Assembly (NCBI GenBank): GCA_002720535.1
Contig: PBIU01000005.1
Span: forward strand, 48,385 to 85,834
Direction of reading: 5' to 3'
Length of the DNA stretch: 37,450 nucleotides
Source of the DNA: Candidatus Pelagibacterales bacterium
Lineage (GTDB): Bacteria > Pseudomonadota > Alphaproteobacteria > TMED109
Positions 8,862 to 35,989 of this stretch are shown here, piece after piece. Position 1 is the first letter of the stretch, and each line of letters starts with the position of its first letter. The notes below the pieces were generated by a model. That model was given only the letters and a program-made list of their open reading frames with translations, did not search any database and was not told the DNA's origin. The position numbers and the translations under genes were made by a program.

Positions 8862-8891
8862 TTGACGTTCATTATATGAACATGATATAAT
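8862..8891 (+). promoter_or_regulatory. sigma70-type promoter: TTGACG, 18-bp spacer, TG-extended TATAAT
   Basis: -35 TTGACG 8862-8867; TGA + TATAAT -10 at 8886-8891; upstream of the NeuB-cupin gene. Confidence 0.75.
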
Positions 8892-8906
8892 GTTCATTAT
8901 GTGAAC
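8867..8906. promoter_or_regulatory. two operator-like palindromes GTTCATTATATGAAC (8867-8881) and GTTCATTATGTGAAC (8892-8906), 25 bp centre to centre
   Basis: Read directly; same architecture recurs at 16356-16395. Confidence 0.75.
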
Positions 8907-8940: not shown

Positions 8941-10425
8941 TTGGAAGATTTTAAAAATTTAGTTATTTTTGAAATGGCTAATAACCACCAGGGTAGTTTA
9001 GATCATGCATTAAATATAATTGATGTCTATTCTAAAATTGTAAAAGATAATAATATAAATGCAGCTATTAAATTACAATTTAGAAATATTTCTACATTTA
9101 TTTCTAAAATACAATTAAAAGAAAAAACTAACAAACATATTGATAGATTTCTTGATACTGAATTAACTCAAAAACAATTTTCAATTATATGTAAAAAAAT
9201 AAAAGATTCTGGCATGAAATTGATTATTACGCCATTTGATGAAGTGTCAGTAGATAATGCATTAAAACAAAATGTTGATATTATAAAAATAGCAAGCTGT
9301 AGTGCGGATGATTGGCCATTAATAGAAAAAATAGCTAAAACCAAAAAGTCTGTTATAGCCTCTACCGGAGGTCAAGATATAAAGGCAATCGATAAAATAC
9401 AGAGGTTTTTGGAGCATCGTGAAATTAATTTTGCTTTAATGCATTGTGTTTCTCTCTACCCAGCTTTGCCAAAAGAGGCCAATGTAGGTTTTATTAAAAG
9501 ATTAAAAAGTAGATATCCTAATACGATAATAGGATACTCAGGTCATGAAGCACCTAGTGATCTTATGACAATTGTTTGTGCTATCGGATGTGGAGCGGTT
9601 TTATTTGAAAGGCATATTGGTTTGCCAACGAATCAAATTACTTTGAATAAATATTCTATGGATCCAGAAGAAACAAAAAAATGGATTGATGTAATTAAAA
9701 ACGCACAGAGTATATGTATGGGTGAGACTGATAAAAATATGACCAAAACTGAGTTAACTTCCATTCAAGAATTAGCAAGAGGTACTTTTTGTAAAATTAA
9801 TATTAAAAAAGGACAAAAAATAAATGATAAGGATGTATATTTTGCTTTTCCACTTGAAAATCAGCAATTGAGCTCTGGTAAATTTTTAGCGGGGATTATT
9901 GCTGAAAAAGATTACTTAAAAGATGATGCAATAACTCAAAAGGTTGAAACTAAACAAGCAAATATTATAAGAGAGCATGTTCATTCATACAAAGGAATGT
10001 TTGAAGAAGCAAGTATTGCAGTAGGAAAATATGAAAGTATGGAGTTATCCCATCACTATGGGTTAGAGAATTTAGCAGAAACAGGTGTAATTCTTATTAC
10101 AATCATTAATGATATTTATTGTAAAAAGTTAGTAGGGTTATTAAAAGGTCAAAAACATCCTACTCATAGACATTATAAAAAAGATGAAACTTTTCATGTT
10201 CTTCAAGGAAAAGTTATAGTTGTAAGGAACGATGTTAAACATATTTTAAATAAAGGTGATAAAATAGATATTAGAGCAGGAGATTGGCATTCGTTTGAGT
10301 CAAAAGAAGGTGCTATTTTTGAGGAAGTATCTACAACTAGTATTGTAGGTGATTCTGAATATAAAGATATTAAAATAAATAATTTAGATCCATATGAAAG
10401 AAAAAGTCAAATATACAAATGGTAA
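8941..10425 (+). CDS. NeuB-family nonulosonate synthase with SAF-like region and C-terminal cupin domain
   Basis: FEMANNHQGSLDHA, STGGQDIKAIDK, GYSGHEAP, ARGTFCKINIKKGQKIND (SAF); C-terminal HPTHRHYKKDETFHVLQGKVIVV…GDWHSFE (cupin). TTG start with GGAG at 8930-8933. Confidence 0.8.
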   Translation: MEDFKNLVIFEMANNHQGSLDHALNIIDVYSKIVKDNNINAAIKLQFRNISTFISKIQLKEKTNKHIDRFLDTELTQKQFSIICKKIKDSGMKLIITPFDEVSVDNALKQNVDIIKIASCSADDWPLIEKIAKTKKSVIASTGGQDIKAIDKIQRFLEHREINFALMHCVSLYPALPKEANVGFIKRLKSRYPNTIIGYSGHEAPSDLMTIVCAIGCGAVLFERHIGLPTNQITLNKYSMDPEETKKWIDVIKNAQSICMGETDKNMTKTELTSIQELARGTFCKINIKKGQKINDKDVYFAFPLENQQLSSGKFLAGIIAEKDYLKDDAITQKVETKQANIIREHVHSYKGMFEEASIAVGKYESMELSHHYGLENLAETGVILITIINDIYCKKLVGLLKGQKHPTHRHYKKDETFHVLQGKVIVVRNDVKHILNKGDKIDIRAGDWHSFESKEGAIFEEVSTTSIVGDSEYKDIKINNLDPYERKSQIYKW

Positions 10426-10958: not shown

Positions 10959-11600
10959 ATGCTAATAAAATCACTTATTACTGCGAGAGGTGGGTCTAAG
11001 TCAGTACCTAAAAAGAATATAATACCTCTTAAAGGTAAACCATTAATTTCCTATTCTATTTTAGCTAGTTTAGAATCAAATGTTTCTGAAACTTGGGTGT
11101 CTACAGAGGATAAAGAGATTAAAAAAATTTCTATGAAATGGGGTGCAAAAGTAATAGATAGACCTAAAGAGTTCGCTACAGATACTATACTAAATGAACC
11201 TTCTCTAATACAATTTGCGGATCAAGAAAAATTTGATTTATTAGTATTTATTCAGCCAACAGGTCCTTTTATAACTTCAAAATATATAAATGAAGGAATA
11301 AATATGATGATTTCAGGTAATTATGATTCTGTTTTTACCGCTACAAAAAAACATTGGGTTCCAACCTGGGATAAAAATATTAATCCAATTGAATGGGATA
11401 TTTATAGTCGTCCTAGAAGACAAGATAGAGATGAATATTATGAAGAAACAGGAATGTTTTATATTACATCTAAAGAAAGGTTGTTAAATACTGGTATAAG
11501 GTATAGTGGGAAAATAGGAATAGTAAAAATACCTTCATATGATAGCTTGCAAATAGATAGTAGGGAAGACCTTGAACTTATTGAAAAAATTATATCTTGA
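10959..11600 (+). CDS. CMP-sugar cytidylyltransferase (NeuA-like)
   Basis: ITARGGSKSVPKKNIIPLKGKPLISYSI, LVFIQPTGPF, EETGMFYITS. Confidence 0.85.
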   Translation: MLIKSLITARGGSKSVPKKNIIPLKGKPLISYSILASLESNVSETWVSTEDKEIKKISMKWGAKVIDRPKEFATDTILNEPSLIQFADQEKFDLLVFIQPTGPFITSKYINEGINMMISGNYDSVFTATKKHWVPTWDKNINPIEWDIYSRPRRQDRDEYYEETGMFYITSKERLLNTGIRYSGKIGIVKIPSYDSLQIDSREDLELIEKIIS

Positions 11601-16350: not shown

Positions 16351-16380
16351 TTGACGTTCATAATGTGAACATGCTATCTT
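16351..16380 (+). promoter_or_regulatory. sigma70-type promoter: TTGACG, 18-bp spacer, TG-extended TATCTT
   Basis: -35 16351-16356, -10 16375-16380; same layout as 8862-8891. Confidence 0.7.
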
Positions 16381-16395
16381 GTTCAAAAATTGAAC
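16356..16395. promoter_or_regulatory. two operator-like palindromes GTTCATAATGTGAAC (16356-16370) and GTTCAAAAATTGAAC (16381-16395), 25 bp centre to centre
   Basis: Read directly; identical spacing to the pair at 8867-8906. Confidence 0.75.
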
Positions 16396-17031: not shown

Positions 17032-17526
17032 ATGAACTGGTATGTTGTAAATACTAAGATAAATAAAGAACAACTGGCTGAAAAACATCTAAATAGGCAA
17101 GGTTTTATTACTTATTTTCCTAAATATAAAAAAATTATAAGTCATGCAAGAAAAGTAACTTCAGTTATTAGACCATTATTTCCTAGGTATATTTTTGTAA
17201 AAATTGATTTATATTCACAAAGATGGGCTTCAATTAATTATACTAATGGAGTTTCCAGATTAGTTTCTATGCATAATATACCAGTAAAAGTATCTAAAGA
17301 GGTAATCAGTAATATAAAATTGCAGGAAGATAATGATGGTTTAATGCATATTTCTTATGCCCAAACTTTTAAAGAAGGTGATGAAGTTAAAATTCATGAC
17401 GGAATATTTTCAGGAGTAACAGGTTTATTTCTAGGTTTGACTGATGATAATAGAGTTAAGGTTTTACTTAATTTATTAGGTAAAGAAATAACTTACTCTT
17501 CAGCAAGTGTTTCAGCTGTTAGATAA
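17032..17526 (+). CDS. NusG paralog (RfaH/UpxY-type specialised elongation factor)
   Basis: MNWYVVNTKINKEQLAEKHLNRQGFITYFPKY…VIRPLFPRYIFVKIDL NGN domain; EGDEVKIHDGIFSGVTGLFLG…RVKVLLNLLGKEITYS KOW-like; AAGGAG Shine-Dalgarno upstream of ATG 17032. Confidence 0.85.
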   Translation: MNWYVVNTKINKEQLAEKHLNRQGFITYFPKYKKIISHARKVTSVIRPLFPRYIFVKIDLYSQRWASINYTNGVSRLVSMHNIPVKVSKEVISNIKLQEDNDGLMHISYAQTFKEGDEVKIHDGIFSGVTGLFLGLTDDNRVKVLLNLLGKEITYSSASVSAVR

Positions 17527-17585: not shown

Positions 17586-17624
17586 GTCAAAATTAATTTA
17601 TATTTATTAGTGGAGGATATAGCA

Positions 17625-18320
17625 ATGAAAGTAAAAAATAATAGTAATCAATCAATATTATGTGTAATTGCTCATCCAGATGATGAGGCTTTGGGAGTAG
17701 GCGGCACATTAATTAAGCATATAGATAAAGGTGACGAGGTTAATATTGTTATTTTTTCAATAGGAGAAACTTCTAAAATTAAAAAAAATATTAATCCTGA
17801 TAGAAGACTTGAAAGCGCTGAGAATTGGTCTAAAGAAGTGGGAAGTAATATTTATAGTATTTTGAATTACCCGGATCAAAAACTTGATACAGTTCCAAAA
17901 CTTGAAATTATTCAAACGTTAGAAACGATATTTAAAAAAATAAAACCTGATATAGTTTATACGCATCATGACGGTGACATAAATCATGATCATCAAATAG
18001 TTAGTCATGCGATATTAACTGCTTTGCGACCAATGAATTCTTTTAATTTAAAACCGGAGATAAGAACATTTGAAACAATATCTTCTACGGAACAAGCACC
18101 TAATACTGATAAATATATATTTAAACCTAACTTATATGTAGATATTGAAAATGTATGGGAAAAAAAAATAAAGGCCTTAAAAAATTATAATAATGAATTA
18201 GCTACTTATCCTCATCCTAGGTCTATTAAATCAATAGAAGCGCTCGCTGTTAAAAGAGGCACTGAGTCAGGTTTAAAAAAAGCAGAAGCTTTTTATATTA
18301 TGAGAAAGATTTGGCTATAG
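17625..18320 (+). CDS. PIG-L family deacetylase
   Basis: ILCVIAHPDDEALGVGGTL, YTHHDGDINHDHQIVSHA; GGAGG at 17612-17616 supports ATG 17625. Confidence 0.85.
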   Translation: MKVKNNSNQSILCVIAHPDDEALGVGGTLIKHIDKGDEVNIVIFSIGETSKIKKNINPDRRLESAENWSKEVGSNIYSILNYPDQKLDTVPKLEIIQTLETIFKKIKPDIVYTHHDGDINHDHQIVSHAILTALRPMNSFNLKPEIRTFETISSTEQAPNTDKYIFKPNLYVDIENVWEKKIKALKNYNNELATYPHPRSIKSIEALAVKRGTESGLKKAEAFYIMRKIWL

Positions 18321-18326
18321 CTAATA

Positions 18327-20123
18327 ATGTTTAACTTGCGCAAGATATATTATAAGATATTAGATCTAATATTAATTTATAAGGCCTTAGATGTTGTTTC
18401 TATTAGCAGAACACTATTTTTGATACTTATTATAATATTTGTAATGCTATTTGATGCCTTAAGTATTATGTCTGTAATGCCTTTAGTACAATTTATTCAG
18501 GCAGATCAAAATATTGAGCAGTTTATTGATTCAACAAATTATGGACAATATTTAGTTAACTTTTATAGTTTTTTTACTATTCCTTTAACACTATTAAATT
18601 TATCTATAGTTTTAGTCATATTTGTAATTATGAGACAATTTATGAATATATTTGAAGTTCTGGAGACTGAGAGAACTAGGTTATTAATAGCAAAAGATTT
18701 ATCTATAAATTGTTTTAAAAGTATTATGTTTTCTAAAGCAGAATATATAAGAAGTTTAAAACAAGGACAATTTACAGCATTATGTGAAAGTGAATGTACG
18801 AGGACAAGTTTATTATTTAAAACATTCTTACAATTCATAAGTGCAGGGTTACAAATTTCTGCTTATGCTACAGTTATGTTTTTTGTTGCACCATTTATGA
18901 CTAGTGCTGCTTTATTAATAATAGTATTATTAATTTTTTCATTAATATCTTTTGTTAAGAAAACTCATAAAGCAGGAGAATTAGTGGTTACTCTCAGAAA
19001 AAAATTTTATAATTTTGTAAGTGAAAATTTTTCTTTATGGAGGTTATTTAAATTTGGATCTTTAGTAAATAATGAAATAAATAAGATTAAATATTTGGCA
19101 GAAAATTATGCTGATACTCAACTAAAAATAATCAAATATAGTAATATTTCACGGTTTATTCTAGCTGTTGTTGCAATGTGTCTATGTGTTATATTTTTAA
19201 ATCTATCCGTTAACTATTTTAGTTTTGATTTTGCTAAAATAACCTTATTTTCAATTATATTTATTCGTTTAATACCTTTAGGTACTAGATTAAATGGTTT
19301 AATCAATTCTTTGGTTGCATATGCTCCATCACTTTATGTAATAAATAAAATATTAAATGATTCAATAGAAAATAAAGAAGAATTGATAAAGGGCATTAGA
19401 TTTAAAGGAAATAATACTTCTATAGAGTTTAAAGATGTATGTTTTTCATACTCTAAAAATAAAAATAATAAAATTTTACGTAATATAAATTTGGTGATTC
19501 CTTCTAATAAAGTAACAGCAATAGTTGGTAAATCTGGAGCGGGTAAATCAACATTAATAGATTTATTGCCTAGAATAATTTCTCCTGACTCAGGAGAAAT
19601 TTATATAGGTGGTAAAAATATTAATACTTATTCTTTAGAATCCATTAGAAATAAAATATCTTTTGTCTCTCAAGATACAATCTTATTTGATGGCTCTATA
19701 AAGGCGAATATTAGTTATTACTCTCCTGAATCAAAAAAAGATGATATTATTAAAGCAAGTAAATTATCTGGTGCTCATGAATTTATTAATAAACTACCAA
19801 ATACATATGAATATAATATTGGAGAAAAAGGCCAAAAACTATCAGGAGGTCAAAAGCAAAGATTAATTTTAGCTAGAGCATTTTTATCTAAGTCAAAGAT
19901 TTTAATTTTAGATGAGGCTACTAGTTCTCTTGACCATGTTTCTGAAAAGCACGTGAAGAAAGCTATTAATGAATTTATACATATGAATAATTCAACTATT
20001 ATTATTATAGCTCATAGGCATACAACTATTGAAAATGCAGATTTAATTGTTTATTTGGAAAATGGACAAGTAAAAGATACCGGTAGCCCAAAGACTATAT
20101 TGTCAAAGTATTTAAAAGCATAA
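18327..20123 (+). CDS. ABC exporter, fused TMD-NBD (MsbA/PglK-like)
   Basis: Hydrophobic N-half; Walker A VGKSGAGKST, LSGGQKQRLILARAF signature, Walker B ILILDEATSSLD. Confidence 0.88.
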   Translation: MFNLRKIYYKILDLILIYKALDVVSISRTLFLILIIIFVMLFDALSIMSVMPLVQFIQADQNIEQFIDSTNYGQYLVNFYSFFTIPLTLLNLSIVLVIFVIMRQFMNIFEVLETERTRLLIAKDLSINCFKSIMFSKAEYIRSLKQGQFTALCESECTRTSLLFKTFLQFISAGLQISAYATVMFFVAPFMTSAALLIIVLLIFSLISFVKKTHKAGELVVTLRKKFYNFVSENFSLWRLFKFGSLVNNEINKIKYLAENYADTQLKIIKYSNISRFILAVVAMCLCVIFLNLSVNYFSFDFAKITLFSIIFIRLIPLGTRLNGLINSLVAYAPSLYVINKILNDSIENKEELIKGIRFKGNNTSIEFKDVCFSYSKNKNNKILRNINLVIPSNKVTAIVGKSGAGKSTLIDLLPRIISPDSGEIYIGGKNINTYSLESIRNKISFVSQDTILFDGSIKANISYYSPESKKDDIIKASKLSGAHEFINKLPNTYEYNIGEKGQKLSGGQKQRLILARAFLSKSKILILDEATSSLDHVSEKHVKKAINEFIHMNNSTIIIIAHRHTTIENADLIVYLENGQVKDTGSPKTILSKYLKA

Positions 20124-20153
20124 TGTATTATTAATAAATATATATCTAAAAAA

Positions 20154-21830
20154 GTGAATAATATGGAAAATATATACTATGGGAAATTTATTCCTGGCAA
20201 TATAGAACAATGGAGAATGTATGAAAATGAAGATAATATAATTTGGCTTGCTGGCGATAATCTAGATAAAAAATTTAATCATTTTATTAAATATATTTCT
20301 AAAAATAAAGTTATTAATAATAATATTCTAAAAAAATTTATTCAAGATATTGATGATCACTTTGGATTATTATGTTTTAATAAAAATTGGATATTTGCCT
20401 GTGTAGATTTTACTCGAAGCTATCCTTTATTTTGGAAAAAAATTGAAGGAAAATTTTTATTTTCCCCGCAAGCAATTAATATTTTAGATAAAAATAAGGA
20501 TTTAATAGATGAAGACCAACTTATTGCATTTAGAATGTCTGGTTATACTATTGATAAGGGAAGTCTGTGGAAAAATATTAGGGGTCTTAATGCAGGAGAA
20601 TTTATTTTTATCGAAAATGAAAAAGATTATATAATACAGAATTATTTTTCTTATAGGCCGTGGAAATATGTTAATAAATCATATTCTGAGTTTAAAATTC
20701 AATTAAAATATGAAATAAATAAAATTATAAAAGATACCATAAGTAAGGCTAATGGAAGAACTATAGTAATTCCATTATCTGCAGGTTTAGATTCACGATT
20801 GATAGCATCAGGTTTAAAACATTTTAATTATACTGACGTAAAATGTTTTACTTATGGATTAAAAGATAATTATGAAAGTAAGGCATCTAAAATTATAGCT
20901 AATAAGTTGGGATATGAATGGAAATTTGTAGAAATAAACCAAAAAAAAGCTAAAAATTTTTATTTAAGCCTAAATTATAAAAATTTTATGAATAATAGCC
21001 AAGATGGATGTGCTACATCTACTATCCAAGGTTTATATGCTATAAATAATCTCTTAAAAAATAATTATATAAATATTGATGATGTAGTTATAAATGGAAA
21101 TTCAGGAGATTTTATTTCAGGAGGCCATATACCCAAAAAAAATATTTTAAAAGGTAAAAATATAACTTTATTGTTTGATGAGGTTTTTGAAGAGCACTTC
21201 GAAAAACATTATTCACTTTGGCAAAATTTAAAAAATAAAAAAAATAAAAATATAATTAAGCGCCTACTTTTAAATCAAATTCAAAATAGTATAGAAGAGA
21301 ATGGTATTTATTTAAATACTCATGGAATTGCTGAAACACTAGAATATCAGAATAGACAAACTAAGTATGTTATTAATGCCCAAAGAATTTATGAATTTTA
21401 TAATTTGAAATGGCAACTTCCTTTATGGAATAAATCATTTATAAAATTTTGGGAGAACGTACCTATAGATTTTAAAAAAAATCAAAAGTTGTATAAAGAT
21501 GCTCTTTTAGAATTAAATATGGGAGGAGTTTGGAATGAAGAATATAATGTTAAAAATTATGTATCACCAAAATGGGTAAGAGTATTAAGAGTATTTTTAA
21601 AAGCTTATTTTTTATTTTATGGAAAAAATAAATGGCACAATTTTGAAAAAAAATACTTAGAATATTGGACAGATAATATTTGTGGTCAGAGCATGCTTCC
21701 CTATAAAAATATTATTAAAAGTAAAAATATAAGTAGGCATTATGTTTCTTGGCTTACAATTTTTTCTGAGGATTTAATGTTAAATTCTAATTGGCAACAT
21801 CAAGATAATTATAAAGATTTAGAGATATGA
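20154..21830 (+). CDS. asparagine-synthase-like protein lacking the N-terminal catalytic Cys; possible ATG start at 20163
   Basis: IPLSAGLDSRLIASGL PP-loop; N-terminus MENIYYGKF instead of MCGI…. Confidence 0.75.
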   Translation: MNNMENIYYGKFIPGNIEQWRMYENEDNIIWLAGDNLDKKFNHFIKYISKNKVINNNILKKFIQDIDDHFGLLCFNKNWIFACVDFTRSYPLFWKKIEGKFLFSPQAINILDKNKDLIDEDQLIAFRMSGYTIDKGSLWKNIRGLNAGEFIFIENEKDYIIQNYFSYRPWKYVNKSYSEFKIQLKYEINKIIKDTISKANGRTIVIPLSAGLDSRLIASGLKHFNYTDVKCFTYGLKDNYESKASKIIANKLGYEWKFVEINQKKAKNFYLSLNYKNFMNNSQDGCATSTIQGLYAINNLLKNNYINIDDVVINGNSGDFISGGHIPKKNILKGKNITLLFDEVFEEHFEKHYSLWQNLKNKKNKNIIKRLLLNQIQNSIEENGIYLNTHGIAETLEYQNRQTKYVINAQRIYEFYNLKWQLPLWNKSFIKFWENVPIDFKKNQKLYKDALLELNMGGVWNEEYNVKNYVSPKWVRVLRVFLKAYFLFYGKNKWHNFEKKYLEYWTDNICGQSMLPYKNIIKSKNISRHYVSWLTIFSEDLMLNSNWQHQDNYKDLEI

Positions 21831-23053
21831 ATATTTTATTTGTTACAAGACTCTATTCTGGCTTTGAAAATAGTTTATACAAAAAGCTATGGCAGCCTGA
21901 AGGAGTTCCCACAATCTATAATCTTTTTAATAGATTAAGTATAAATCACAATTTATCTATTATTTTTACGGCAAAAGATTCTGGATCTACATATTCCTCA
22001 AACTGGAAAGAAACTCGGGATAAAAATATTAAATTAAATAACTTTAAAGCTGATATTACAGTACTCTGTGGAACTAAATATTTTTTTAGTTTTATACCTA
22101 GAAAATTAGCAATGGTTATGAGAGATATAAGACAATTATTCCAAATTTTTATGTATGTAAAAAAAATAAAGCCAGATTTAATTTATTGTGATTCAGCTAA
22201 TGTAGTTATTGCATTTGTTTTAACTAAAATTTTTCCTAAAAAACCAATTGTTGTAAGGGTATTAGGGATATGTTCATTTTGGAGATCAATAACTAATAGT
22301 AAGAGAATTGTTCATAGAATATATAAATATGCATTTAAGGGAAAGTTTGCAGCTGTTATAGGGACTCAAGATGGAAGTGGAATAGAATATTGGTTTAAAG
22401 ATACTTTGCATAAAACTATTCCGAGATATGTTTTACTTAATGGAGTGGATAAAGCTCCTAATATAAGGAAATTAAATAAAAAAATTAAGACTATTTTATT
22501 TGTAGGGAGACTAGAAGAATATAAAGGAATTTTTAATTTTTTAAATGCTATTATTCAAATACTTAAAGAAGGTAAACATGAATTAAATATTATTATTATT
22601 GGTGATGGAACTTTGTATGAAAGAGCTATCGGATTATGTCAAGAATCCGGTTTTTTCAATAGCTTTCAATTCTTAAGAAGTATACCTCATAATCAAGTAT
22701 TAAAACATCATACACAATCTGATATATATGTTTCTGCAAATACTGATGGAAATCTTATTAATACTAACCTTGAAGCAATCAGTGCTAATGCATGTATGAT
22801 TATTCCAAAGCCTCAGTATGATAGATTTATAGATATTGAAACATTTAAATTATTAGCTGATGCGGTTAATTATTATGAGGTAAATAATATTAAGGATTTA
22901 AAGTCTAAAATATTATTTTTGTTACAAAATCCAAATAAAATTAATGAGTATAAAAGAAAACTTTCTTCTTATAAATTAAAATTTATTAGAACTTGGAATG
23001 AAAGAATTAATGAGGAAGAAGATATATTAAAAGCAATTGTTATGAAAAAATAG
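21827..23053 (+). CDS. glycosyltransferase, GT4-like
   Basis: TILFVGRLEEYKGIFNFLNAI, YVSANTDGNLINTNLEAISANACMII. Confidence 0.75.
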   Translation: MNILFVTRLYSGFENSLYKKLWQPEGVPTIYNLFNRLSINHNLSIIFTAKDSGSTYSSNWKETRDKNIKLNNFKADITVLCGTKYFFSFIPRKLAMVMRDIRQLFQIFMYVKKIKPDLIYCDSANVVIAFVLTKIFPKKPIVVRVLGICSFWRSITNSKRIVHRIYKYAFKGKFAAVIGTQDGSGIEYWFKDTLHKTIPRYVLLNGVDKAPNIRKLNKKIKTILFVGRLEEYKGIFNFLNAIIQILKEGKHELNIIIIGDGTLYERAIGLCQESGFFNSFQFLRSIPHNQVLKHHTQSDIYVSANTDGNLINTNLEAISANACMIIPKPQYDRFIDIETFKLLADAVNYYEVNNIKDLKSKILFLLQNPNKINEYKRKLSSYKLKFIRTWNERINEEEDILKAIVMKK

Positions 23054-23066
23054 TGAGTAAAATATT

Positions 23067-24896
23067 ATGTGCGGTATATTTGGGTTAATTGGAAATAATA
23101 AAAATAGTTTGGCTGATATTCACAAGCTAGCTAAGTATTCAAAAAGAAGAGGTTCCGACTCTTCTGGAGTATTGCTATTTCAAGATAAGTATTTAGTAGA
23201 GAGGGCTGATTTTAATATATCAAAACTTGTAAAAAAATTAGATATCAATAATCCTGAATTATTTCTTGGAATAGGAAGATTAATTACTAATGATAATGAA
23301 ATGAATCAACCCTTTTTAAGTGATGATATATGTGTTTTCCATAATGGGATTGTAGTAAATGATCATGAAATTTTTGCAGAAGAAAAAATTAAGCGCTTAA
23401 GTTCTCTAGATACAGAAGTTTTCCAAGCGCTGATAAAAAAATATATAAAGAATAACAATTTAAAAGAATTTAAAGAAATATTTTTATCTAAATGTAAGGG
23501 CACATTTTCAGTAGCTATAGCTTTACCAAAATTAGGAAGATTATTACTATTTTCTAATCATGGAAGCTTATATTTAGGGTATAAGGAAAATCTAATAATT
23601 TTTTCTTCAGAAAAACATCATTTATTAAGTCTTCAATGTAAAAATATAATTAACTTAAACAAAAATATTAAGATTATAGATATTCCTAAAGTTAATAATG
23701 AAAAAATTTTATTGAAAGATCATAAAATTAAAAGAAGATTACTTGTTTCTAAAAGAAAATTTTCACATTATAAAGAAAAACTTCTAGATAAAACTAATCC
23801 TCAAGTTCTAAGGTGCAGAAAGTGTGTACTTCCACATACTTTTCCATTTATAAGCTTTAATCAGGAAGGAATATGTAACTATTGCACAAATCATAAAACT
23901 AGGATTGCTTCAAAACCTAAACAGGACTTAGAAAAAATATTAGAGAATTATAGAAAAAAAAGTGGTCCAGATTGTATCGTTCCTTTTTCAGGTGGAAGGG
24001 ATAGTTCATATGCTCTTCATTTAATTGTAAATGAGTTGAATATGAATCCTATTACTTATACATATGATTGGGGTATGACATCGGATATTGGGCGACGAAA
24101 TATTAGTAGAGTATGCTCTCAGCTAGGAGTTGAAAATATTATTGTCTCTGCTGATATAAACAAAAAAAGAAATAATATAAGAAAGAATATTAATGCTTGG
24201 CTAAAAAATCCCCATTTAGGAATGGTAAATATATTTACTGCCGGGGACAAACATTTTTATAAATATATTGAAGATATAAAAAAAGAAACCAACATTAGTC
24301 TTAATTTATGGGGATATAGCCCATTTGAGGTTACACACTTTAAAGCAGGGTTTTTAGGGTATCCTCCAGATTTTCAAACAGCAAGGACCTATACTTATGG
24401 TGCATTAAAACAATTAAGATATCAATTCTTAAGATTAAAAGCTATGTTTAAAAACCCCGCTTATTTTAACCTTTCTTTGTTAGATTCTTTATCAGGGGAA
24501 TATTATCGTAGTTTCAAAAAGAAAGAAGATTATTATTATATATTTGATTATCTTCCATGGGATGAAAAAGTAGTAGATAAAACATTAATCAATGAATATA
24601 AATGGGAGTTAGCTAGAGATACTTCTACTACTTGGAGAATAGGAGATGGTACAGCTGGATTTTATAATTATATATATTATACTATAGCTGGTTTCACGGA
24701 GCATGATACATTTAGAAGTAACCAAGTTAGAGATGGAGTAATATCAAGGGAAGAAGCATTATCATTAGTTGAAATAGAAAATAGGCCTAGATTTGATAAT
24801 ATTGCAGAATACCTAGAAATGTTAGATTTAGATTTTGAAACTGTAATAAATAGAATTAACTCAGTACCAAGGTTATGGTATCAAAATCCTAAATAA
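23067..24896 (+). CDS. class II glutaminase fused to N-acetyl-sugar amidotransferase (PseA/WbpG-like)
   Basis: MCGIFGLIGN (Ntn glutaminase) then LRCRKCVLPHTFPFISFNQEGICNYC…VPFSGGRDSSYALHLI. Confidence 0.8.
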   Translation: MCGIFGLIGNNKNSLADIHKLAKYSKRRGSDSSGVLLFQDKYLVERADFNISKLVKKLDINNPELFLGIGRLITNDNEMNQPFLSDDICVFHNGIVVNDHEIFAEEKIKRLSSLDTEVFQALIKKYIKNNNLKEFKEIFLSKCKGTFSVAIALPKLGRLLLFSNHGSLYLGYKENLIIFSSEKHHLLSLQCKNIINLNKNIKIIDIPKVNNEKILLKDHKIKRRLLVSKRKFSHYKEKLLDKTNPQVLRCRKCVLPHTFPFISFNQEGICNYCTNHKTRIASKPKQDLEKILENYRKKSGPDCIVPFSGGRDSSYALHLIVNELNMNPITYTYDWGMTSDIGRRNISRVCSQLGVENIIVSADINKKRNNIRKNINAWLKNPHLGMVNIFTAGDKHFYKYIEDIKKETNISLNLWGYSPFEVTHFKAGFLGYPPDFQTARTYTYGALKQLRYQFLRLKAMFKNPAYFNLSLLDSLSGEYYRSFKKKEDYYYIFDYLPWDEKVVDKTLINEYKWELARDTSTTWRIGDGTAGFYNYIYYTIAGFTEHDTFRSNQVRDGVISREEALSLVEIENRPRFDNIAEYLEMLDLDFETVINRINSVPRLWYQNPK

Positions 24897-24932
24897 TGCT
24901 AGTTATTGTTAAATTAAAATAGGGAAATAAAT

Positions 24933-25934
24933 TTGGATTTTAATAATAAAAATATATTAATTACCGGAGGAACTGGATCTTTTGGAACTAAATGCGTTGA
25001 AACTCTTTTAAGAGATTATAAACCTAAAAGACTAGTAATCTTTAGTAGAGATGAATTAAAACAATATGAAATGAGTCAAGTCTATTCGGAAGAAAAATTT
25101 TCATGTTTAAGATATTTTTTGGGCGATGTCAGGGATGGGGAAAGAGTAAAAAGAGCATGCGCTAACATTGATATAATTATTCATGCAGCTGCAATGAAAC
25201 ATGTTACTGCATCAGAATATAATCCCACAGAATGTATAGAAACTAATATAAATGGAGCTAAAAATATTATAGATGCATCAATTGAAAATAATATAAAGAA
25301 AGTTATTGCTCTTTCTACAGATAAAGCCGCCAGTCCAATAAATCTGTATGGTGCGACTAAACTGTGTTCAGATAAATTATTTATTGCTGCAAACAATTTG
25401 TCAGGTAAACATAAAACTCGTTTTTCAGTAGTAAGATATGGAAATGTCATAAATTCTAGAGGAAGTGTTATTCCACATTTTAATAAGTTATTGAAAGGTG
25501 GTAAAAAAAAACTGCCATTAACTAATATTAATATGACTCGGTTTGTAATAACCCTGGACCAGGGAGTTCAATTTGTACTAAAGGCATTTACAAATATGAG
25601 CGGAGGTGAAATATTTATTCCTAAAATACCTAGTATGAATATTATAGACTTAGTCACTTGTATGGCAGGAGAAGGGCAGTATAAAGAAGTTGGTATAAGG
25701 CCAGGTGAAAAGTTACATGAGGTTATGATTCCTAGAGAAGAATCTTTGAATTGTATTGAAATGGATGATTATTATATAATCCAACCAATGTTTTCATGGT
25801 GGAACACTGAGCAGTTAAAATTAACAATAGGTAATAATGGAAAAAAGGTTGCCAAATCTTTTGAGTATTCAAGTGACTCAAATACTAATTTCTTAAGTTT
25901 AGATGATATAAAAAGAATTTTAGGTCAAAAATAA
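24933..25934 (+). CDS. pseB: UDP-GlcNAc 4,6-dehydratase (PseB-like), TTG start
   Basis: ILITGGTGSFGTKCVETLL, VIFSRDELKQYEMSQ, AAAMKHVTASEYNPTE, STDKAASPINLYGATK; Pse gene neighbourhood. Confidence 0.8.
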   Translation: MDFNNKNILITGGTGSFGTKCVETLLRDYKPKRLVIFSRDELKQYEMSQVYSEEKFSCLRYFLGDVRDGERVKRACANIDIIIHAAAMKHVTASEYNPTECIETNINGAKNIIDASIENNIKKVIALSTDKAASPINLYGATKLCSDKLFIAANNLSGKHKTRFSVVRYGNVINSRGSVIPHFNKLLKGGKKKLPLTNINMTRFVITLDQGVQFVLKAFTNMSGGEIFIPKIPSMNIIDLVTCMAGEGQYKEVGIRPGEKLHEVMIPREESLNCIEMDDYYIIQPMFSWWNTEQLKLTIGNNGKKVAKSFEYSSDSNTNFLSLDDIKRILGQK

Positions 25935-25967
25935 TATTTTCTTAAATTTTTATCAAAAATTAAATAG

Positions 25968-26948
25968 ATGATGAGATTAGCCATAAGAGTATCTTCTGCG
26001 AGCAGTTCAGGCAGAGGACATTTTGAAAGGTGTTTAGCTATAAGGAGCTATATACCAGAAGGTGTATTTTGGTTTGTAGATTATGAATCAGACTATATAA
26101 AAAATAAAATTTTTAAATCTGATAAAATATTTTATGAAAATGGGAAAAATAAATTTAATATATTAAAAAATAATCTGGAAAAATATTCTATTAATTGTAT
26201 TTTAATTGATAGCTATGCGATTAATAGTAAAGATATTCATAACATAAGTAATAATATACCAATAGTCGTTTTTGATGACCAAAATACTAATACAATAGCT
26301 GACATATTAATATGTCCTCATCCTTTAAATTATAATGATATTCAAGGTAAAAAATATCTTATTGGCCCAAAATATGCACCAATTTCTAATAAATTCAGTT
26401 TTTTTGAAAAAGAAAATAGTAAAGATAAAAAGATTTTAATTTCTTTTGGTGCTTATGATAGTAATGGAATTACATTAAATGTTATTAAGTCAGTTAAAAA
26501 GTTTATTGAAGATAGTAAATATAATTTAAATATAATAATTATTTTAGGAAAGGAATCTCCAATTATTACAAAAGTTCAACATGAAATTCAAAATTTATCT
26601 AATTATAAATTAATACTAGATTGCGATAAAATGGAAAAAATATATAAAAATTGTGATATTGCTATTGGTTCACCAGGTCTATCTTATTTAGAAAGAATGG
26701 CCTCAGGGACACCGAGTATATTGATATCTCAGAATAAATTGCATGATATCTTGATTAATAAATGGGTAGATTTGGGTTGTGGAATAAAAGCTGAAAATTC
26801 TGCTAATTCAATAGAATATACATTAAAAAAATTGATTTTAGATGATAACCTTCACCAGGAATTAATACTTAAGGGTAAAAATACAGTAGATGGCAAAGGT
26901 GCGGAAAGAATTGCAAAAGAAATTATTAATATGGTTAGTATAAAATGA
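25968..26948 (+). CDS. pseG: UDP-sugar hydrolase (PseG-like)
   Basis: RVSSASSSGRGHFERCLAIR, IAIGSPGLSYLERMASGTPSILIS. Confidence 0.78.
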   Translation: MMRLAIRVSSASSSGRGHFERCLAIRSYIPEGVFWFVDYESDYIKNKIFKSDKIFYENGKNKFNILKNNLEKYSINCILIDSYAINSKDIHNISNNIPIVVFDDQNTNTIADILICPHPLNYNDIQGKKYLIGPKYAPISNKFSFFEKENSKDKKILISFGAYDSNGITLNVIKSVKKFIEDSKYNLNIIIILGKESPIITKVQHEIQNLSNYKLILDCDKMEKIYKNCDIAIGSPGLSYLERMASGTPSILISQNKLHDILINKWVDLGCGIKAENSANSIEYTLKKLILDDNLHQELILKGKNTVDGKGAERIAKEIINMVSIK

Positions 26949-28123
26949 TTAAATATCCTTATTCAAAACCTGAGGTAACTAAGTCAGATATTAATGAGGT
27001 AAAAAAGGTATTATTAGGTGGGTATTTGAGCCAAGGAGAAAAAATTCATAAATTTGAATATGAGTTATCAAGATATTTTGATAGTAAAAATGCTATAGTT
27101 TGTAATTCGGGAACAGCAGCATTACATTTAATTTATATGGCTCTAGGAATTGGACCTAAAGCTGGACTCTTAACAACACCTATAACTTTCTTGGCTACTG
27201 CTAATGCAGCAAAAATGTGTAATGCATCAGTATATTTCGCAGATGTAGATCATATATCAGGCCTCTTGACTGCAGATACAATAGAAAAATCTTTAAAAAA
27301 ATATAAAAATAAAATTAAAGTAATTACATTGGTACATTTAGGAGGTAAAATATGCGATTTAGAATCAATATCTAAAGTAGCAAAAAAATATAATTGCTTA
27401 ATTGTAGAAGATGCAAGTCACGCAGCAGGAGCTGAATATTATGATAAAGGTGGAGTTAGTAGTAAGGTAGGAAGTAATAAGTATAGTATTGCAACGGCGT
27501 TTAGTTTTAATGCTATCAAACATGTTGCTATGGGCGAAGGGGGTTGTGTATCAACTAATAATAAAATAATAGCTGATAAAATTAAAAATTTAAGAAGTCA
27601 TGGTATGTTAAGGCAAAAAAATAAATTGCTTTATAAACCTAAAGAACATGCACCTTGGTATTATGAAATGCAAGAGTTAGGTTGGAATTATAGAGCTGAT
27701 GAGACTTCATGTGCATTAGGATTAAGCCAACTTAAAAGATTGCAAAGAGGAATATTTAAAAGGAGAAAAATAGCAAGATATTATTTTAATGAATTAAAAG
27801 ATATAGATTGTATTATTCTACCAGCTAATATTAAAAGTATTAATCAGAGTGTTTGGCATTTATATCCACTACTTATAGATTTTAAAAAAATAGGTATTAG
27901 TCGTAGTCATATGATGAAACAATTATTGAAATATGGAATTCAAACACAAGTTCACTATATACCTTTATTTATGCAACCATATTATAGAAATAGAAATTTT
28001 TTCTTATTTAAAGAATCCATAAAATATTATGATTCTACATTAAGCATCCCTTTATATGTGCAGCTTAATAAAAAAGATATTATTTATATAAGTTCAAAAA
28101 TTAAGAGTGTAATAAATCATTAA
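26945..28123 (+). CDS. pseC: DegT/DnrJ-type aminotransferase (PseC-like)
   Basis: IVCNSGTAALHLIYMAL, VEDASHAAGAEY, ATAFSFNAIKHVAMGEGG. Confidence 0.85.
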   Translation: MIKYPYSKPEVTKSDINEVKKVLLGGYLSQGEKIHKFEYELSRYFDSKNAIVCNSGTAALHLIYMALGIGPKAGLLTTPITFLATANAAKMCNASVYFADVDHISGLLTADTIEKSLKKYKNKIKVITLVHLGGKICDLESISKVAKKYNCLIVEDASHAAGAEYYDKGGVSSKVGSNKYSIATAFSFNAIKHVAMGEGGCVSTNNKIIADKIKNLRSHGMLRQKNKLLYKPKEHAPWYYEMQELGWNYRADETSCALGLSQLKRLQRGIFKRRKIARYYFNELKDIDCIILPANIKSINQSVWHLYPLLIDFKKIGISRSHMMKQLLKYGIQTQVHYIPLFMQPYYRNRNFFLFKESIKYYDSTLSIPLYVQLNKKDIIYISSKIKSVINH

Positions 28124-29921
28124 TCCTAGCGTAGTATTTTGTGATTCATATGAGGCTTTAAATACGCTTTATTCTAGAGGTTTGTCTGAGACTACTAAAA
28201 TAATTACAAAATCCCCACGAATATTAAGCTCTAATAATAATTATGTTCAAGATTTAGAAAAAGATGTAAATAATAAATATAATGAAATTTATAGAAATAA
28301 ATCAAAAGAATATACTTATGAAATTTATAATAGTTTAAAAAAAGAAAAAAATATTTCTGAATATAGCTTGTTATGTTCACAAAAATTTTTGAAATTTTAT
28401 AATCAAATATATTTTGCAAGTTTATTTAGCGATAGTTTTCTAGGAAGAGAATTTTGGGTAATTAAGCCCATTTGTAAAGATAAAAAAATAAATTATGCTA
28501 TTTCTTCTGATATTTATAATATTTTAGAGCTTCACCCAAATTGTAAAATCAAGGAAATTCCAGTCAATTCAACTAATGAAAGATCCGCTCGTGGGGATAG
28601 TAAAGTAAGTCTTTATTCACGCTTACGTATCGTAGGGTATAAAGGCATATTTTGGAATTTTTTGAATTTAATATCTTTTTTATTTAAAAGTAATAAAGTT
28701 AAAATAGCTATAATAAGTAGTAACGAATTAGTGAGAGATATTAGTTTTTATCTTTTATGGAGAAAGAATCTTAATATATTTTACTTTAAGAAATTTTTTA
28801 ATTTTAAAAATAAAATAGTGATTATTAAAAATGAAAATATAATTAAAAATATTAGTGTTATTGTAAATAAAATTTTTCTAAAAGCATTGAGGGACGTACC
28901 ATCAGAAACTATTAGAGAATTATTAATAGCTAAATGGAACATAGAATTAATAGATATTATTAATTCATATAGAACATATAAGCATAATATTAAAAATATT
29001 TTAGATAAAAAAAAGATAGATTTTATTTTAATTGGTTATTTAGATATGCTTAAAGGGCTTGCTCTTCATAATATATGTCAAAATAAAAGTATACCCTTAA
29101 TATCATGCCAACATGGTATTACAAGAGAGATAATATTTGATCCTAACATGAGATCAATATTTTTTGAAACGAGTTTTAGCGACTATTTATTTTGTTATAA
29201 TGATATGTCTAAGAAAGTTACGCAGTCTGCAATGTATTATAATCAAAATAATATTTATAATATCGGTCTTCCTTCTGATTATAGAAACTTTATTTCTAAA
29301 AAAAATAAGAGTAAAGAAATTTGTTATATTTCTACAATTTTATTATCCGGCGGTATTCCAAATTTTATAGCACCTGAAAAGGATATTGAATTAATAAATT
29401 GGGAATTAAAACTGATAAATAAAGTTTTTAAAAAAACTATAAAGACTATAGATTATAAACCTTATCCTGCTATTAGATATGCAGAAAATGACATTAGTAT
29501 TCAGGCTGTTAAGGAAGATAATAATCTAAAATTAGTGGGTACTCATATAGATTTAAGATATATAATTTCAAATTATGGCCTATTAATAACTTCTGGTGCT
29601 ACAAGTACTTTAGGATGGTGTGTTCAATCTAACATTCCTTTAATAATTATAAATAGAAAAGGCTCGCTTTCAATAAAAGAAAGCGTAATTCATGATTTTA
29701 AAAAAGCTTTTTTTATTTTTGATGATTCAGATGAAAATTGGACTAAAAAATTAAAATCATTTTTAGAAAAAGAATATTCAGATATATTAAAGTTATGGAG
29801 AAATAAATTAGATACTAGACCTGCTATTATAAAAAAGTATTTTGGTGATGTTAACTTAAATGCAGGCAAGAATGGTGCAAATATTATTAATAATATAATT
29901 AGAGAACAAAAATTTGGATAA
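28119..29921 (+). CDS. putative surface-carbohydrate transferase (QHG-type GT-B); track start 28182, coding appears to extend to ATT 28119 or ATC 28116
   Basis: LISCQHGITREI, SGATSTLGWCVQSNIPLIII; upstream in-frame INPSVVFCDSYEALNTLYSRGLSETTKIITKSP. Confidence 0.6.
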   Translation: MNPSVVFCDSYEALNTLYSRGLSETTKIITKSPRILSSNNNYVQDLEKDVNNKYNEIYRNKSKEYTYEIYNSLKKEKNISEYSLLCSQKFLKFYNQIYFASLFSDSFLGREFWVIKPICKDKKINYAISSDIYNILELHPNCKIKEIPVNSTNERSARGDSKVSLYSRLRIVGYKGIFWNFLNLISFLFKSNKVKIAIISSNELVRDISFYLLWRKNLNIFYFKKFFNFKNKIVIIKNENIIKNISVIVNKIFLKALRDVPSETIRELLIAKWNIELIDIINSYRTYKHNIKNILDKKKIDFILIGYLDMLKGLALHNICQNKSIPLISCQHGITREIIFDPNMRSIFFETSFSDYLFCYNDMSKKVTQSAMYYNQNNIYNIGLPSDYRNFISKKNKSKEICYISTILLSGGIPNFIAPEKDIELINWELKLINKVFKKTIKTIDYKPYPAIRYAENDISIQAVKEDNNLKLVGTHIDLRYIISNYGLLITSGATSTLGWCVQSNIPLIIINRKGSLSIKESVIHDFKKAFFIFDDSDENWTKKLKSFLEKEYSDILKLWRNKLDTRPAIIKKYFGDVNLNAGKNGANIINNIIREQKFG

Positions 29922-30495
29922 TATTAAAGCTTTAAAAGAAAGTGATATTTATATAAGGCCGTTATTAAGCGAAGATATAACAGTTAGATATCTATCATGG
30001 TTTAAGAACGATATTGTAACTAAGTTTTTAGATGCAAAAAATTTAAAAAAAAATGAAGTTATAAAATACTTAAATTATGGGAAGGAATCAGGTAGTTACT
30101 ATATTTATGCTATATGTCTAAAATCAAATGATATGCATATAGGAAATATTAAAATAGGTCCTATAAAAAGGAAAGATGGAATATCAGATTTAGTTACTGT
30201 TATTGGAGATGATTATTATTGGGGTAAGGGTTTTGCCAAATACGCAATCATTTCTGCAATAGATATTGGTTTTAATCAAGGAGGCATAAGAAAATTTAGT
30301 GCAAGTATTAATTCTTTAAATATTTCATCTTTAAAAGCTTACACATCGGCAGGAATGAAAAAAGAGGCTATTATTCAGAATTATTTTTATAATAATGTAG
30401 AAAATGAAATTATTATTTCGGATAAAATATATGTTGGGTGTGAAAATAAAAAATTTAATATGGATCTTTTGCAGAGTTGGGAGCCTTTTTCCTAG
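29914..30495 (+). CDS. pseH: GNAT N-acetyltransferase (PseH-like)
   Basis: IYIRPLLSEDITVRYLSWFKND, DDYYWGKGFAKYAIISAIDIGF; between pseC and pseI. Confidence 0.75.
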   Translation: MDNIKALKESDIYIRPLLSEDITVRYLSWFKNDIVTKFLDAKNLKKNEVIKYLNYGKESGSYYIYAICLKSNDMHIGNIKIGPIKRKDGISDLVTVIGDDYYWGKGFAKYAIISAIDIGFNQGGIRKFSASINSLNISSLKAYTSAGMKKEAIIQNYFYNNVENEIIISDKIYVGCENKKFNMDLLQSWEPFS

Positions 30496-30519
30496 AGGTT
30501 TTAGGGTATATATCTAATC

Positions 30520-31539
30520 ATGAAAACTAATTTTAAAATATTTAATAAGAATATTTATCAAGACTCGCCTTGTTTAATAATTGCAGAAATTGGAATTAAT
30601 CACCTTGGGGAAGTAAAACTATGTGAAGAAATGATATTATCTGCGTTAGATGCGGGAGCAGATTGTGTTAAATTACAAACTGTAAATGTGGAAGAAAGTT
30701 ATCATCCAAATACGGAATCATATAGAGTTTTTAAAAATGCGGAACTAAATATTGAAGAACTTAAATACCTTATTAAAATAACTGAAAAAAATAATGGTTT
30801 TTTATTTTCTACACCGGGTGATATATCTTCCTTAAATTTATTGAGTCTTTTAAATATACAAGCATATAAAATTTCTTCAGGTCTTTTAGGTAATTTACCA
30901 TTAATACAAGAAATTTCTAAAACTAATATGCCTATAATTTTATCTACTGGCATGGCTTCGGAAATTGACATTGATAGAGCTTTAAGTCAAATCAAGAATT
31001 ACGAAAAAACAAATATAGCCCTATTACACTGTGTATCAATTTATCCAGCTAAAAATGAGTTTTTAAATTTACAGTTTATAAGACATCTATCAGAAAAATA
31101 TAATGTTATATCTGGTTATTCAGATCATAGTATAGGCCCTCTAGCCTGCATTTCTGCAGTTGCAAGCGGAGCAAAAATAATTGAAAAACATTTTACTATA
31201 GATAATAATATTACAGGTGCTGATAATAGTTTATCAATGAATCCAAAAGAATTTAAATCTATGTGTAAAAATATTAGAGAGACTGAAGAAATGTTGTATG
31301 GTTCAACATTTAAACCTCATCCTTTGGAAGAAAGTTTAAAAAAATCTAGATATAGAAAAATAGTTGCTGGAGTAAATATTAATAAAGGGGATGAAATAAA
31401 TTTATCTAATGTAAACTTTATGAGAATAGACGATGATTTAGATTCAATTGATGCGTCTGAATGGAATTTATTTTCCGGTAAAAAAAGTAAAAAAAATATT
31501 CAAAAATTTAGTCCTATTACTTTAAAATGTATTTTGTAA
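30520..31539 (+). CDS. pseI: pseudaminic acid synthase (PseI-like NeuB family)
   Basis: IIAEIGINHLGEVKLCEEMI, ILSTGMAS, SGYSDHSIGPLACI, C-terminal SAF-like KIVAGVNINKGDEIN. Confidence 0.82.
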   Translation: MKTNFKIFNKNIYQDSPCLIIAEIGINHLGEVKLCEEMILSALDAGADCVKLQTVNVEESYHPNTESYRVFKNAELNIEELKYLIKITEKNNGFLFSTPGDISSLNLLSLLNIQAYKISSGLLGNLPLIQEISKTNMPIILSTGMASEIDIDRALSQIKNYEKTNIALLHCVSIYPAKNEFLNLQFIRHLSEKYNVISGYSDHSIGPLACISAVASGAKIIEKHFTIDNNITGADNSLSMNPKEFKSMCKNIRETEEMLYGSTFKPHPLEESLKKSRYRKIVAGVNINKGDEINLSNVNFMRIDDDLDSIDASEWNLFSGKKSKKNIQKFSPITLKCIL

Positions 31540-31603
31540 TACTATGGCTGAAAATTATACATACTTAAAGCATGGTCTATATTTATAAACTTAGGATATC
31601 TTA

Positions 31604-32656
31604 ATGTTTAAACATAGAGTTTTAATAACAGCAGTCTCAGGTGCTTTGGGACCACAAAATATTAATTTTATGAAGAACTCAATTAAAGGAGATGTATGGG
31701 TTTTAGGTGTAGATGTAAAACATAATTATGTTGCAGAAAATAATGCTAATGAATTTGCATTAGTTCCCCTAGGAAATACTAAAAAATATATTTCTAGAAT
31801 TCAGGAATTAATTAACCTTCACAAGATTACAATGGTACTTCCCTGTTCAGATGAGGAAGCTATAAACTTATCAAGAAATAGAGAAGTTATAGAGAGTAAA
31901 AGTACATTATTAGCAACAGCAAAAATATCGACTATTAAAACTATATCTAATAAAATACTTACTTATAATTTTTTTAAAAAAGTTGGTATAACAGTGCCAG
32001 ATTTTAGAGTATGCAATAATGAACTAGAATTAATTAAACATGCCTCAAATTTTTATCAAGAAAGGGGCTCATTTGTTATAAAAGATGCTATTGCTAGGGG
32101 TAATAGAGGAACAATATTGGTAGATAAAACTATTAAAGGTAGGCAAGATTATATGGGCTCCAGAGAATTACATATGGGTTGGGAATATTTTAATGATAAT
32201 TTTAAGAAGTTTGTGGATCAAACTTTTCCGAAATTAATTACTGAGCGCCTTTATGAGCCGTGTTATGATATAGATGTATTATCAAAGGATGGAAAGTTAA
32301 TAAATGCTATTGCTCGGGAAAGAATAAACCCTGCAGGTGTTCCTTATCATGGAAATATTATGAGAAATAATAATAAATTAACTAATTTAGCAAAAAAAGT
32401 GTCTGAGTATCTAGAATTAACTTGGTTATATGACATTGATATAATGACTAGAAAAGATGGAACACCTGTATTATTAGAAGTAAATCCCAGGCCAAGTGGT
32501 AGCTCAGCCGCTTCTATGCAGTGCGGAGTTCCCCTTTATAAAAACTTATTAGAGTTATTTGAGAGAGATGATTTTCAAGAAAAAAATTATTTTGTCGATG
32601 GAACAATTATTAGTCCTAGTTTTATATGTAATGTTATTAAACCGAAAATAAAGTAA
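31604..32656 (+). CDS. ATP-grasp (CarB-like) protein
   Basis: Central FVIKDAIARGNRGTILV; VLLEVNPRPSGSSAASMQCGVPLYKNLLEL. Confidence 0.75.
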   Translation: MFKHRVLITAVSGALGPQNINFMKNSIKGDVWVLGVDVKHNYVAENNANEFALVPLGNTKKYISRIQELINLHKITMVLPCSDEEAINLSRNREVIESKSTLLATAKISTIKTISNKILTYNFFKKVGITVPDFRVCNNELELIKHASNFYQERGSFVIKDAIARGNRGTILVDKTIKGRQDYMGSRELHMGWEYFNDNFKKFVDQTFPKLITERLYEPCYDIDVLSKDGKLINAIARERINPAGVPYHGNIMRNNNKLTNLAKKVSEYLELTWLYDIDIMTRKDGTPVLLEVNPRPSGSSAASMQCGVPLYKNLLELFERDDFQEKNYFVDGTIISPSFICNVIKPKIK

Positions 32657-32657
32657 T

Positions 32658-33812
32658 ATGAAGAATATTAAATTTCAAGATACCTCTTTGAGAGATGGAG
32701 AACAAACTCCAGGTGTTGCATATAACCTCCAAGACAAAATTAGAATTACAGAACAACTAATAAAATTAAATGTTGATAGTATTGAGGTTGGTTTTCCTGC
32801 TGCTTCAAAAGATGAAGCAGCAATTGTAAAAGAAATTTCATTAAAATATAAAAATAATAAAAATATATTTTGCGTTTTTGCAAGGGCTATTAAGGAAGAT
32901 ATAGATATTGCTTATGAAAGTATTAAAGAAGCAAAATTCAAAAGATTACAAATTGTTGCTCCTGCATCTGACATACACATTAAATATTCTACCAGTAAAG
33001 ATAAAAAATCTATACTTAAAGATTTAGAGGCAGCTATTAAATATGCGTCTTCAAAATTTCAAGATATTCAATTTACCGCACAAGACGCTCCTCGAGCAGA
33101 TTTAAAATTTTTAAAAAAACTAATAGACACAGCTATTAAAAATGGAGCAAGAATTGTTTGCTTGCCAGATACTTCTGGTTTTTGCTTGCCAGAAGAATAT
33201 GGAAAATTAATTTCTTCAATAAAAAAACATATAAGCTTAAATGATGTTACAATATCAGCTCATTGCCATAATGATTTAGGGTTAGCAGCAATAAATACTA
33301 TTGCTGCAATAAAAGCAGGTGCTGATCAAGTAGAATGTACTATAAATGGAATAGGAGAAAGAGCTGGTAATACTCCTATGGAAGAAATTGCCGTTATAAT
33401 AAATTTAAAATATAAGGAATTATATACTAATGCTTTAAACTTAAAATATTTTAAAGAAGTTAGTAATATAATGTCTGATATAACAGGTTTACAAGTCCAT
33501 GTTAATAAACCTTTGTTTGGAAAGAATGCATTTCTACATTCTTCCGGCATGCATCAAAAGGCTATTATAAATAATAAAGAAACTTTTGAAGTTATTAATG
33601 CAGAAGATTATGGAATAAAAGGGGGTAAACTATCAATAGGAAAATTATCTGGTAAAGCTGGTGTTGTTAACTACTTAAAACAGATGAATATTATTTTAGA
33701 TGATAAAGAATTAAAAAAAGTTATGGAATTAATAAAAAAAGAAGCAATAAATATTAAAGAGTTTAATAAAGATAAAATTATTAGAATACTTAAAAAACAA
33801 AATATTAATTGA
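32658..33812 (+). CDS. HMGL-like / 2-isopropylmalate-synthase-like protein without a LeuA regulatory domain
   Basis: FQDTSLRDGEQTPGVAYN, ISAHCHNDLGLAAINTIAAIKAGADQVECTINGIGERAGN, FLHSSGMHQ; ends at 384 aa. Confidence 0.8.
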   Translation: MKNIKFQDTSLRDGEQTPGVAYNLQDKIRITEQLIKLNVDSIEVGFPAASKDEAAIVKEISLKYKNNKNIFCVFARAIKEDIDIAYESIKEAKFKRLQIVAPASDIHIKYSTSKDKKSILKDLEAAIKYASSKFQDIQFTAQDAPRADLKFLKKLIDTAIKNGARIVCLPDTSGFCLPEEYGKLISSIKKHISLNDVTISAHCHNDLGLAAINTIAAIKAGADQVECTINGIGERAGNTPMEEIAVIINLKYKELYTNALNLKYFKEVSNIMSDITGLQVHVNKPLFGKNAFLHSSGMHQKAIINNKETFEVINAEDYGIKGGKLSIGKLSGKAGVVNYLKQMNIILDDKELKKVMELIKKEAINIKEFNKDKIIRILKKQNIN

Positions 33813-35870: not shown

Positions 35871-35989
35871 ATTAAATATTTTTAATTTAGATATAGTAAA
35901 ATAAAATAATAAATAATTCAGAAATAGAACATAAAAAAATTTTTAAAGATATTAATTTATATCTTAAAAAATTTAAAATACATGCATGG

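Follow-up and report, generated by a model that had tools for sequence, protein, structure and literature searches.

Does a winged-helix protein control the promoter from which its own gene is read? This question arises from a locus of Candidatus Pelagibacterales, in which two palindromes are inserted in the promoter of a regulator gene. We analysed a window of 37,450 nucleotides around this locus (contig PBIU01000005.1, positions 48,385 to 85,834), its own genome, and the genomes of related bacteria. The regulator, a protein of 205 amino acids, is called P0001 here. A sequence-only reading of the window had proposed that P0001 binds the palindromes and regulates itself.

Two promoters with paired palindromes

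The promoter at 16351-16395 was described in that reading as the parallel of a twin located upstream. The comparison confirms it, since both present the same -35 element, an 18-bp spacer, and a palindrome pair with a period of 25 bp (16351-16395 and 8862-8906 alike, checked by script). Table 1 collects the coordinates. In the regulator promoter, the final G of the -35 hexamer is at the same time base 1 of palindrome 1. The TG of its extended -10 is at 16372-16373, and operator 2 lies over the expected transcription start. The exact palindrome GTTCAN5TGAAC is found four times in the whole window, always in these two promoters.

Table 1. Promoter elements, putative operators and genes of the window.
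Feature	Position	Strand	Basis
-35 hexamer TTGACG, regulator promoter	16351-16356	+	read directly
Operator 1 (putative), regulator promoter, GTTCATAATGTGAAC, within the -35/-10 spacer	16356-16370	.	kept in orthologs
-10-like hexamer TATCTT, TG-extended, 18-bp spacer, regulator promoter	16375-16380	+	read directly
Operator 2 (putative), regulator promoter, GTTCAAAAATTGAAC, adjoining the -10	16381-16395	.	kept in orthologs
-35 hexamer TTGACG, twin promoter	8862-8867	+	read directly
Operator 1 (putative), twin promoter, GTTCATTATATGAAC	8867-8881	.	
-10 hexamer TATAAT, 18-bp spacer, twin promoter	8886-8891	+	read directly
Operator 2 (putative), twin promoter, GTTCATTATGTGAAC	8892-8906	.	
NeuB-like and cupin protein, first gene under the twin promoter	8941-10425	+	PF03102 (7.8e-40), Cupin_2 (9.5e-10)
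PseF-like CMP-sugar cytidylyltransferase, twin-promoter train	10959-11600	+	TIGR03584, PF02348
P0001 regulator gene, 205 aa	16413-17030	+	HTH_24 winged helix, long helix, C-terminal Rossmann-like domain
RfaH-like NusG paralog, best start ATG 17032	17032-17526	+	TIGR01955, PF02357
Surface-glycan gene train, co-directional	17610-36784	+	NCBIfam and Pfam matches
Train members: PIG-L deacetylase, ABC transporter, WbuX-like	within 17610-36784	+	
Train members: PseB, PseG-like, PseC-like, NeuB/PseI-like	24933, 25968, 26945, 30520	+	

These sites are rare in the genome to which the window belongs (1.68 Mb, 9 contigs, about 89% complete). The extended palindrome TGTTCAN5TGAACA, with one mismatch at most, occurs at four places genome-wide, all of them in the two promoters. 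The combined pattern TTGACGTTCAN5TGAAC has 2 copies, compared with 0 for the reversed-pattern control and about 0.002 expected from base composition. Loose palindromes (up to 2 mismatches) amount to 77 against 56 in the control. These loose counts are near background, so we used the strict sites alone.

The ORF track begins the regulator at GTG 16365, a codon that falls inside palindrome 1. The earlier preference for ATG 16413 is the better choice, because the product from this codon (MSNKDNKHNDM...) aligns with the start of the ortholog from the same genus (MNNHEIKKDDM...).

The genes under both promoters are related to surface glycans. The train after the RfaH-like gene is a glycan cluster of the pseudaminic-acid type, and its PseB scores above the family cut-off. 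This train is the probable target of RfaH-like antitermination, and the arrangement of its genes suggests co-transcription. Under the twin promoter, the NeuB-cupin gene has a TTG start with GGAG upstream. The PseF-like protein of the same train matches TIGR03584 below the cut-off (4e-32), as well as PF02348 (3.1e-17), and a gene for a HAD-type protein is also present there.

Palindromes and regulator genes in other genomes

Orthologs of P0001 were gathered by protein only. A single-protein query against the genome contigs returned no match, and an alignment search succeeded. Enough upstream sequence was available at 79 loci. Within 300 nt upstream, the exact GTTCAN5TGAAC is present in 68 of the 79, or in 74 with one mismatch at most. 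Two or more sites are present in 63. In the remaining five orthologs, rfaH immediately precedes the regulator in the same orientation, and the palindrome lies ahead of rfaH. It was expected from the earlier proposal that orthologs carry the palindromes upstream. They do so in 79/79, if the position ahead of rfaH is counted where rfaH leads. This shows that the operator stands at the operon head and relocates when gene order changes.

As a control, we took 59 other palindromes with permuted half-sites and the same composition; each of them was found in 0/79 orthologs. Likewise, the upstream DNA (24.9 kb) holds 117 exact sites, and the flanking DNA (1.14 Mb) holds 10. The RfaH-like gene adjoins the regulator in 66/79 loci (49 downstream and 17 upstream).

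Another search used only the motif TTGACGTTCAN5TGAAC, in 385 genomes of the same class (Alphaproteobacteria, judging from the matching contigs). It gave 45 sites in 38 genomes, versus a single control site. A regulator match follows 37 of the 45 sites at 30-153 nt. The regulator is present in 38/38 genomes with the motif versus 90/385 overall (Fisher p about 7e-28, a value that overstates independence, the genomes being related). Eight sites are left. One lies at the end of a contig, and its sequence is identical to the regulator promoter of that genome. The other seven, with the window's own twin among them, lie ahead of glycan or nonulosonate genes or operons. More precisely, they precede the NeuB-cupin gene (own genome), a CBS-nucleotidyltransferase with PseB downstream, an RmlD-like gene with PseB, an ABC transporter with a PseF-like gene, an ABC transporter/NeuB-like train, a PseB-like gene, and a PseC-like gene. 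In three of these seven (G035, G153, and G005), the first gene past the site is uncertain or distant. On the best reading, P0001 would be an autoregulator with a tiny regulon of glycan genes.

The layout of the promoter varies among the orthologs. Of 74 ortholog promoters, 47 have TTGAC directly adjoining a site, and a -10 beginning with TA usually adjoins site 2. The period of the palindromes is mostly 21-25 bp, with a mode of 23; some Gammaproteobacteria, among others, have about 30-33. The 25-bp operator spacing, given in the sequence-only reading as common to the two promoters, is exact at both. However, it is not conserved, being just one of the periods in this range. Conservation lies instead in the contacts of the sites with the promoter elements: site 1 adjoins the -35, and site 2 the -10. 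Many Gammaproteobacteria have site 2 alone.

Relatives of the gammaproteobacterial type present the start codon inside the right half-site of the operator (ATGAAC, Met-Asn), about 9 nt past a TATAGT-like -10. They are L049, L052, L056-L060, L064, L066, L074, L079, L081, L082, L086, L088, L094, L097, L111, L113, and L115. This position suggests a near-leaderless regulator mRNA. In other loci (L037-L044, L053, L062, and L069), three or four consecutive palindromes are placed ahead of the regulator, suggesting cooperative binding across a longer stretch.

The palindrome extends to short TIGR04176-type genes, which have no C-terminal domain. The exact GTTCAN5TGAAC is upstream of their start or overlaps it in 12 of L159-L171 plus L179. 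A diverged clade (L173-L178 and L180) has GTTCAN4TGAAC in 7/7 loci and the form with a 5-bp spacer in none. This change fits operator and protein changing together, as a direct protein-operator pair would show. The genes of this clade join a MarR_EPS-like winged helix, in frame and with no stop, to ATP-sulfurylase and APS kinase domains (Pfam check on L173 and L174). The more distant relatives L030, L031, and L170 have no clear GTTCAN5TGAAC nearby. L030 carries another inverted repeat, TGACATG...CATGTCA.

Domains of P0001 and known regulators

P0001 matches the Pfam family HTH_24 (PF13412) with 1.6e-10 and 40.8 bits, over the gathering score of 21.9. Its match to MarR_2 has 17.6 bits, under the gathering score of 27. 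The closest named family is TIGR04176 (MarR_EPS, the MarR family EPS-associated transcriptional regulator), whose winged helix is homologous. Against this family P0001 obtains 71.5 bits (E 5e-20), under the cut-off of 88 bits, and it is longer by a C-terminal Rossmann-like domain of some 100 amino acids. On the other hand, its location agrees with that family, which is tied to polysaccharide genes: PseB, PseG-, PseC-, NeuB-, and RfaH-like genes are downstream. True TIGR04176 members also share the palindrome of P0001, a criterion that comes from the present analysis and not from the family definition. An open-access literature search, of incomplete coverage, found no study of the TIGR04176-type family, its operator or its regulon.

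The AlphaFold model of P0001 has a mean pLDDT of 72. The C-terminal domain reaches about 90, and the winged helix is low, about 40-60. With VIA-align, residues 103-203 superpose on the CoA-binding domain of the succinyl-CoA synthetase alpha subunit (Z 10-11). The C-terminal domain also superposes on Rex repressors (Z 9-9.9, about 89 residues, rmsd 2.2-2.8) and on a UDP-sugar dehydrogenase domain (3nkl, Z 9.9). A Foldseek search with the model gave no match below E 0.001, and the family profile, searched against PDB sequences, had no significant match. The superpositions of the modelled domain would indicate only a common CoA-binding/Rex-type Rossmann fold, not a function.

Rex redox-sensing repressors resemble P0001 in having an N-terminal winged helix, a C-terminal Rossmann-type domain, and palindromic operators. 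However, P0001 has no match to the Rex DNA-binding domain in Pfam and does not keep the glycine-rich NAD-binding loop. The Rex operator differs from GTTCAN5TGAAC. The likeness is one of common fold only, and the succinyl-CoA synthetase alpha subunit fits the C-terminal domain equally well. The Rossmann loop of P0001 reads SDFSELSE, and that of most orthologs GxSDLAE. Column 117 of this loop is a near-invariant Gly that P0001 lacks. Therefore NAD binding is doubtful, and bacteria of its genus may use another ligand. In the loci examined, a profile built on the C-terminal domain matched no further homologous protein, not even the suspected sugar-enzyme neighbours. For this reason, a nucleotide-sugar ligand is still a guess.

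The gene at 17032-17526 is like the specialised NusG paralogs RfaH, UpxY, and LoaP, in that it heads a long glycan train. Its product matches PF02357 (7.8e-21) and TIGR01955 (5.5e-35), the latter with 120.7 bits, under the RfaH equivalog cut-off of 144.5. It is the probable partner of P0001, not the palindrome binder. P0001 itself would best be read as an autoregulated winged-helix regulator, a known kind.

Probable repression of the two promoters, and other readings

We consider it very probable that P0001 binds the palindromes and controls its own and the neuB-like promoters, likely as a repressor relieved by a ligand. Three points weigh against this reading: the low-confidence model of the winged helix, the loop Gly missing from P0001, and the lone site 2 of many Gammaproteobacteria. 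The co-occurrence of palindrome and regulator, in orthologs and in the motif-only search alike, favours the earlier idea that the adjacent winged-helix protein is the binder of the pair and regulates itself. Dimers of P0001 would occupy GTTCAN5TGAAC at two places, one between the -35 and the -10 and one over the -10 and the transcription start. From its own promoter, the control by P0001 would extend to the RfaH-like gene and, probably, to the glycan cluster. P0001 would also control the neuB-like promoter, located 7.5 kb upstream. The placement of the sites suggests that bound P0001 would exclude RNA polymerase at both promoters, which means repression. The C-terminal Rossmann-like domain would be the likely sensor, and its ligand, perhaps a nucleotide or a nucleotide-sugar, would relieve the repression. 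We infer that the RfaH-like protein, expressed at the same time, helps transcription through the long cluster as an antiterminator.

The sign of the control is read from geometry, and a repressor is the most likely form. P0001 could also bind the sites as an activator, or activate one promoter and repress the other. Some winged-helix regulators do activate, and neither the TATCTT -10 nor the 18-bp spacer of the regulator promoter is optimal. Nevertheless, we judge this reading unlikely. Site 1 takes up the -35/-10 spacer and site 2 lies across the start region, and a good -10 (TATAGT or TATAAT) is present in many relatives. The spacers of 16-18 bp also differ from the long ones of MerR-type activation, which was set aside on this ground.

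It is very improbable that a different conserved regulator, such as a LexA-like or global factor, binds the palindromes while the P0001 gene is merely adjacent. The half-sites GTTC/GAAC are indeed shared with the LexA boxes of Alphaproteobacteria. However, the LexA box is the direct repeat GTTCN7GTTC of SOS genes, and we rejected it: the sites here are inverted, number 1-2 per genome with no SOS-like set, and stand at regulator or glycan genes. Among the 385 genomes, every one with the strict pattern also has the regulator, and the spacing of the site shifts in the diverged regulator clade. We give the least credence of all to the palindrome being an RNA hairpin in the leader instead of a DNA operator. 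Its overlap with the start codon in Gammaproteobacteria would agree with a hairpin. In Alphaproteobacteria, however, site 1 is upstream of the -10, so it is untranscribed from that promoter, and site spacing is tied to the promoter elements.

Returning to repression by P0001, a broader proposal has about the same chance of being right as of being wrong. TIGR04176 and its two-domain relatives would form a proteobacteria-wide and previously undescribed autoregulated switch. A ligand-sensing winged-helix repressor and an RfaH-type antiterminator would together gate nonulosonate and surface-glycan operons. In Gammaproteobacteria, the operator would hold the start codon of a near-leaderless mRNA. 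To a family named from genome neighbourhood alone, the analysis assigns a defined operator, a promoter architecture, and a regulon of few genes. For many uncultured Proteobacteria, the sequence now allows one to predict how pseudaminic-acid-type and exopolysaccharide clusters are controlled. A clear ligand question is raised for the regulator family, and the control circuit is now directly testable.

Two observations concern the glycan genes of the window. Besides the NeuB-cupin fusion at 8941-10425, a separate NeuB/PseI-like gene is present at 30520-31539. At 33813-35870, another fusion joins an N-terminal half that appears nucleotidyltransferase-like from its sequence to a half similar to glutamate-1-semialdehyde aminomutase.
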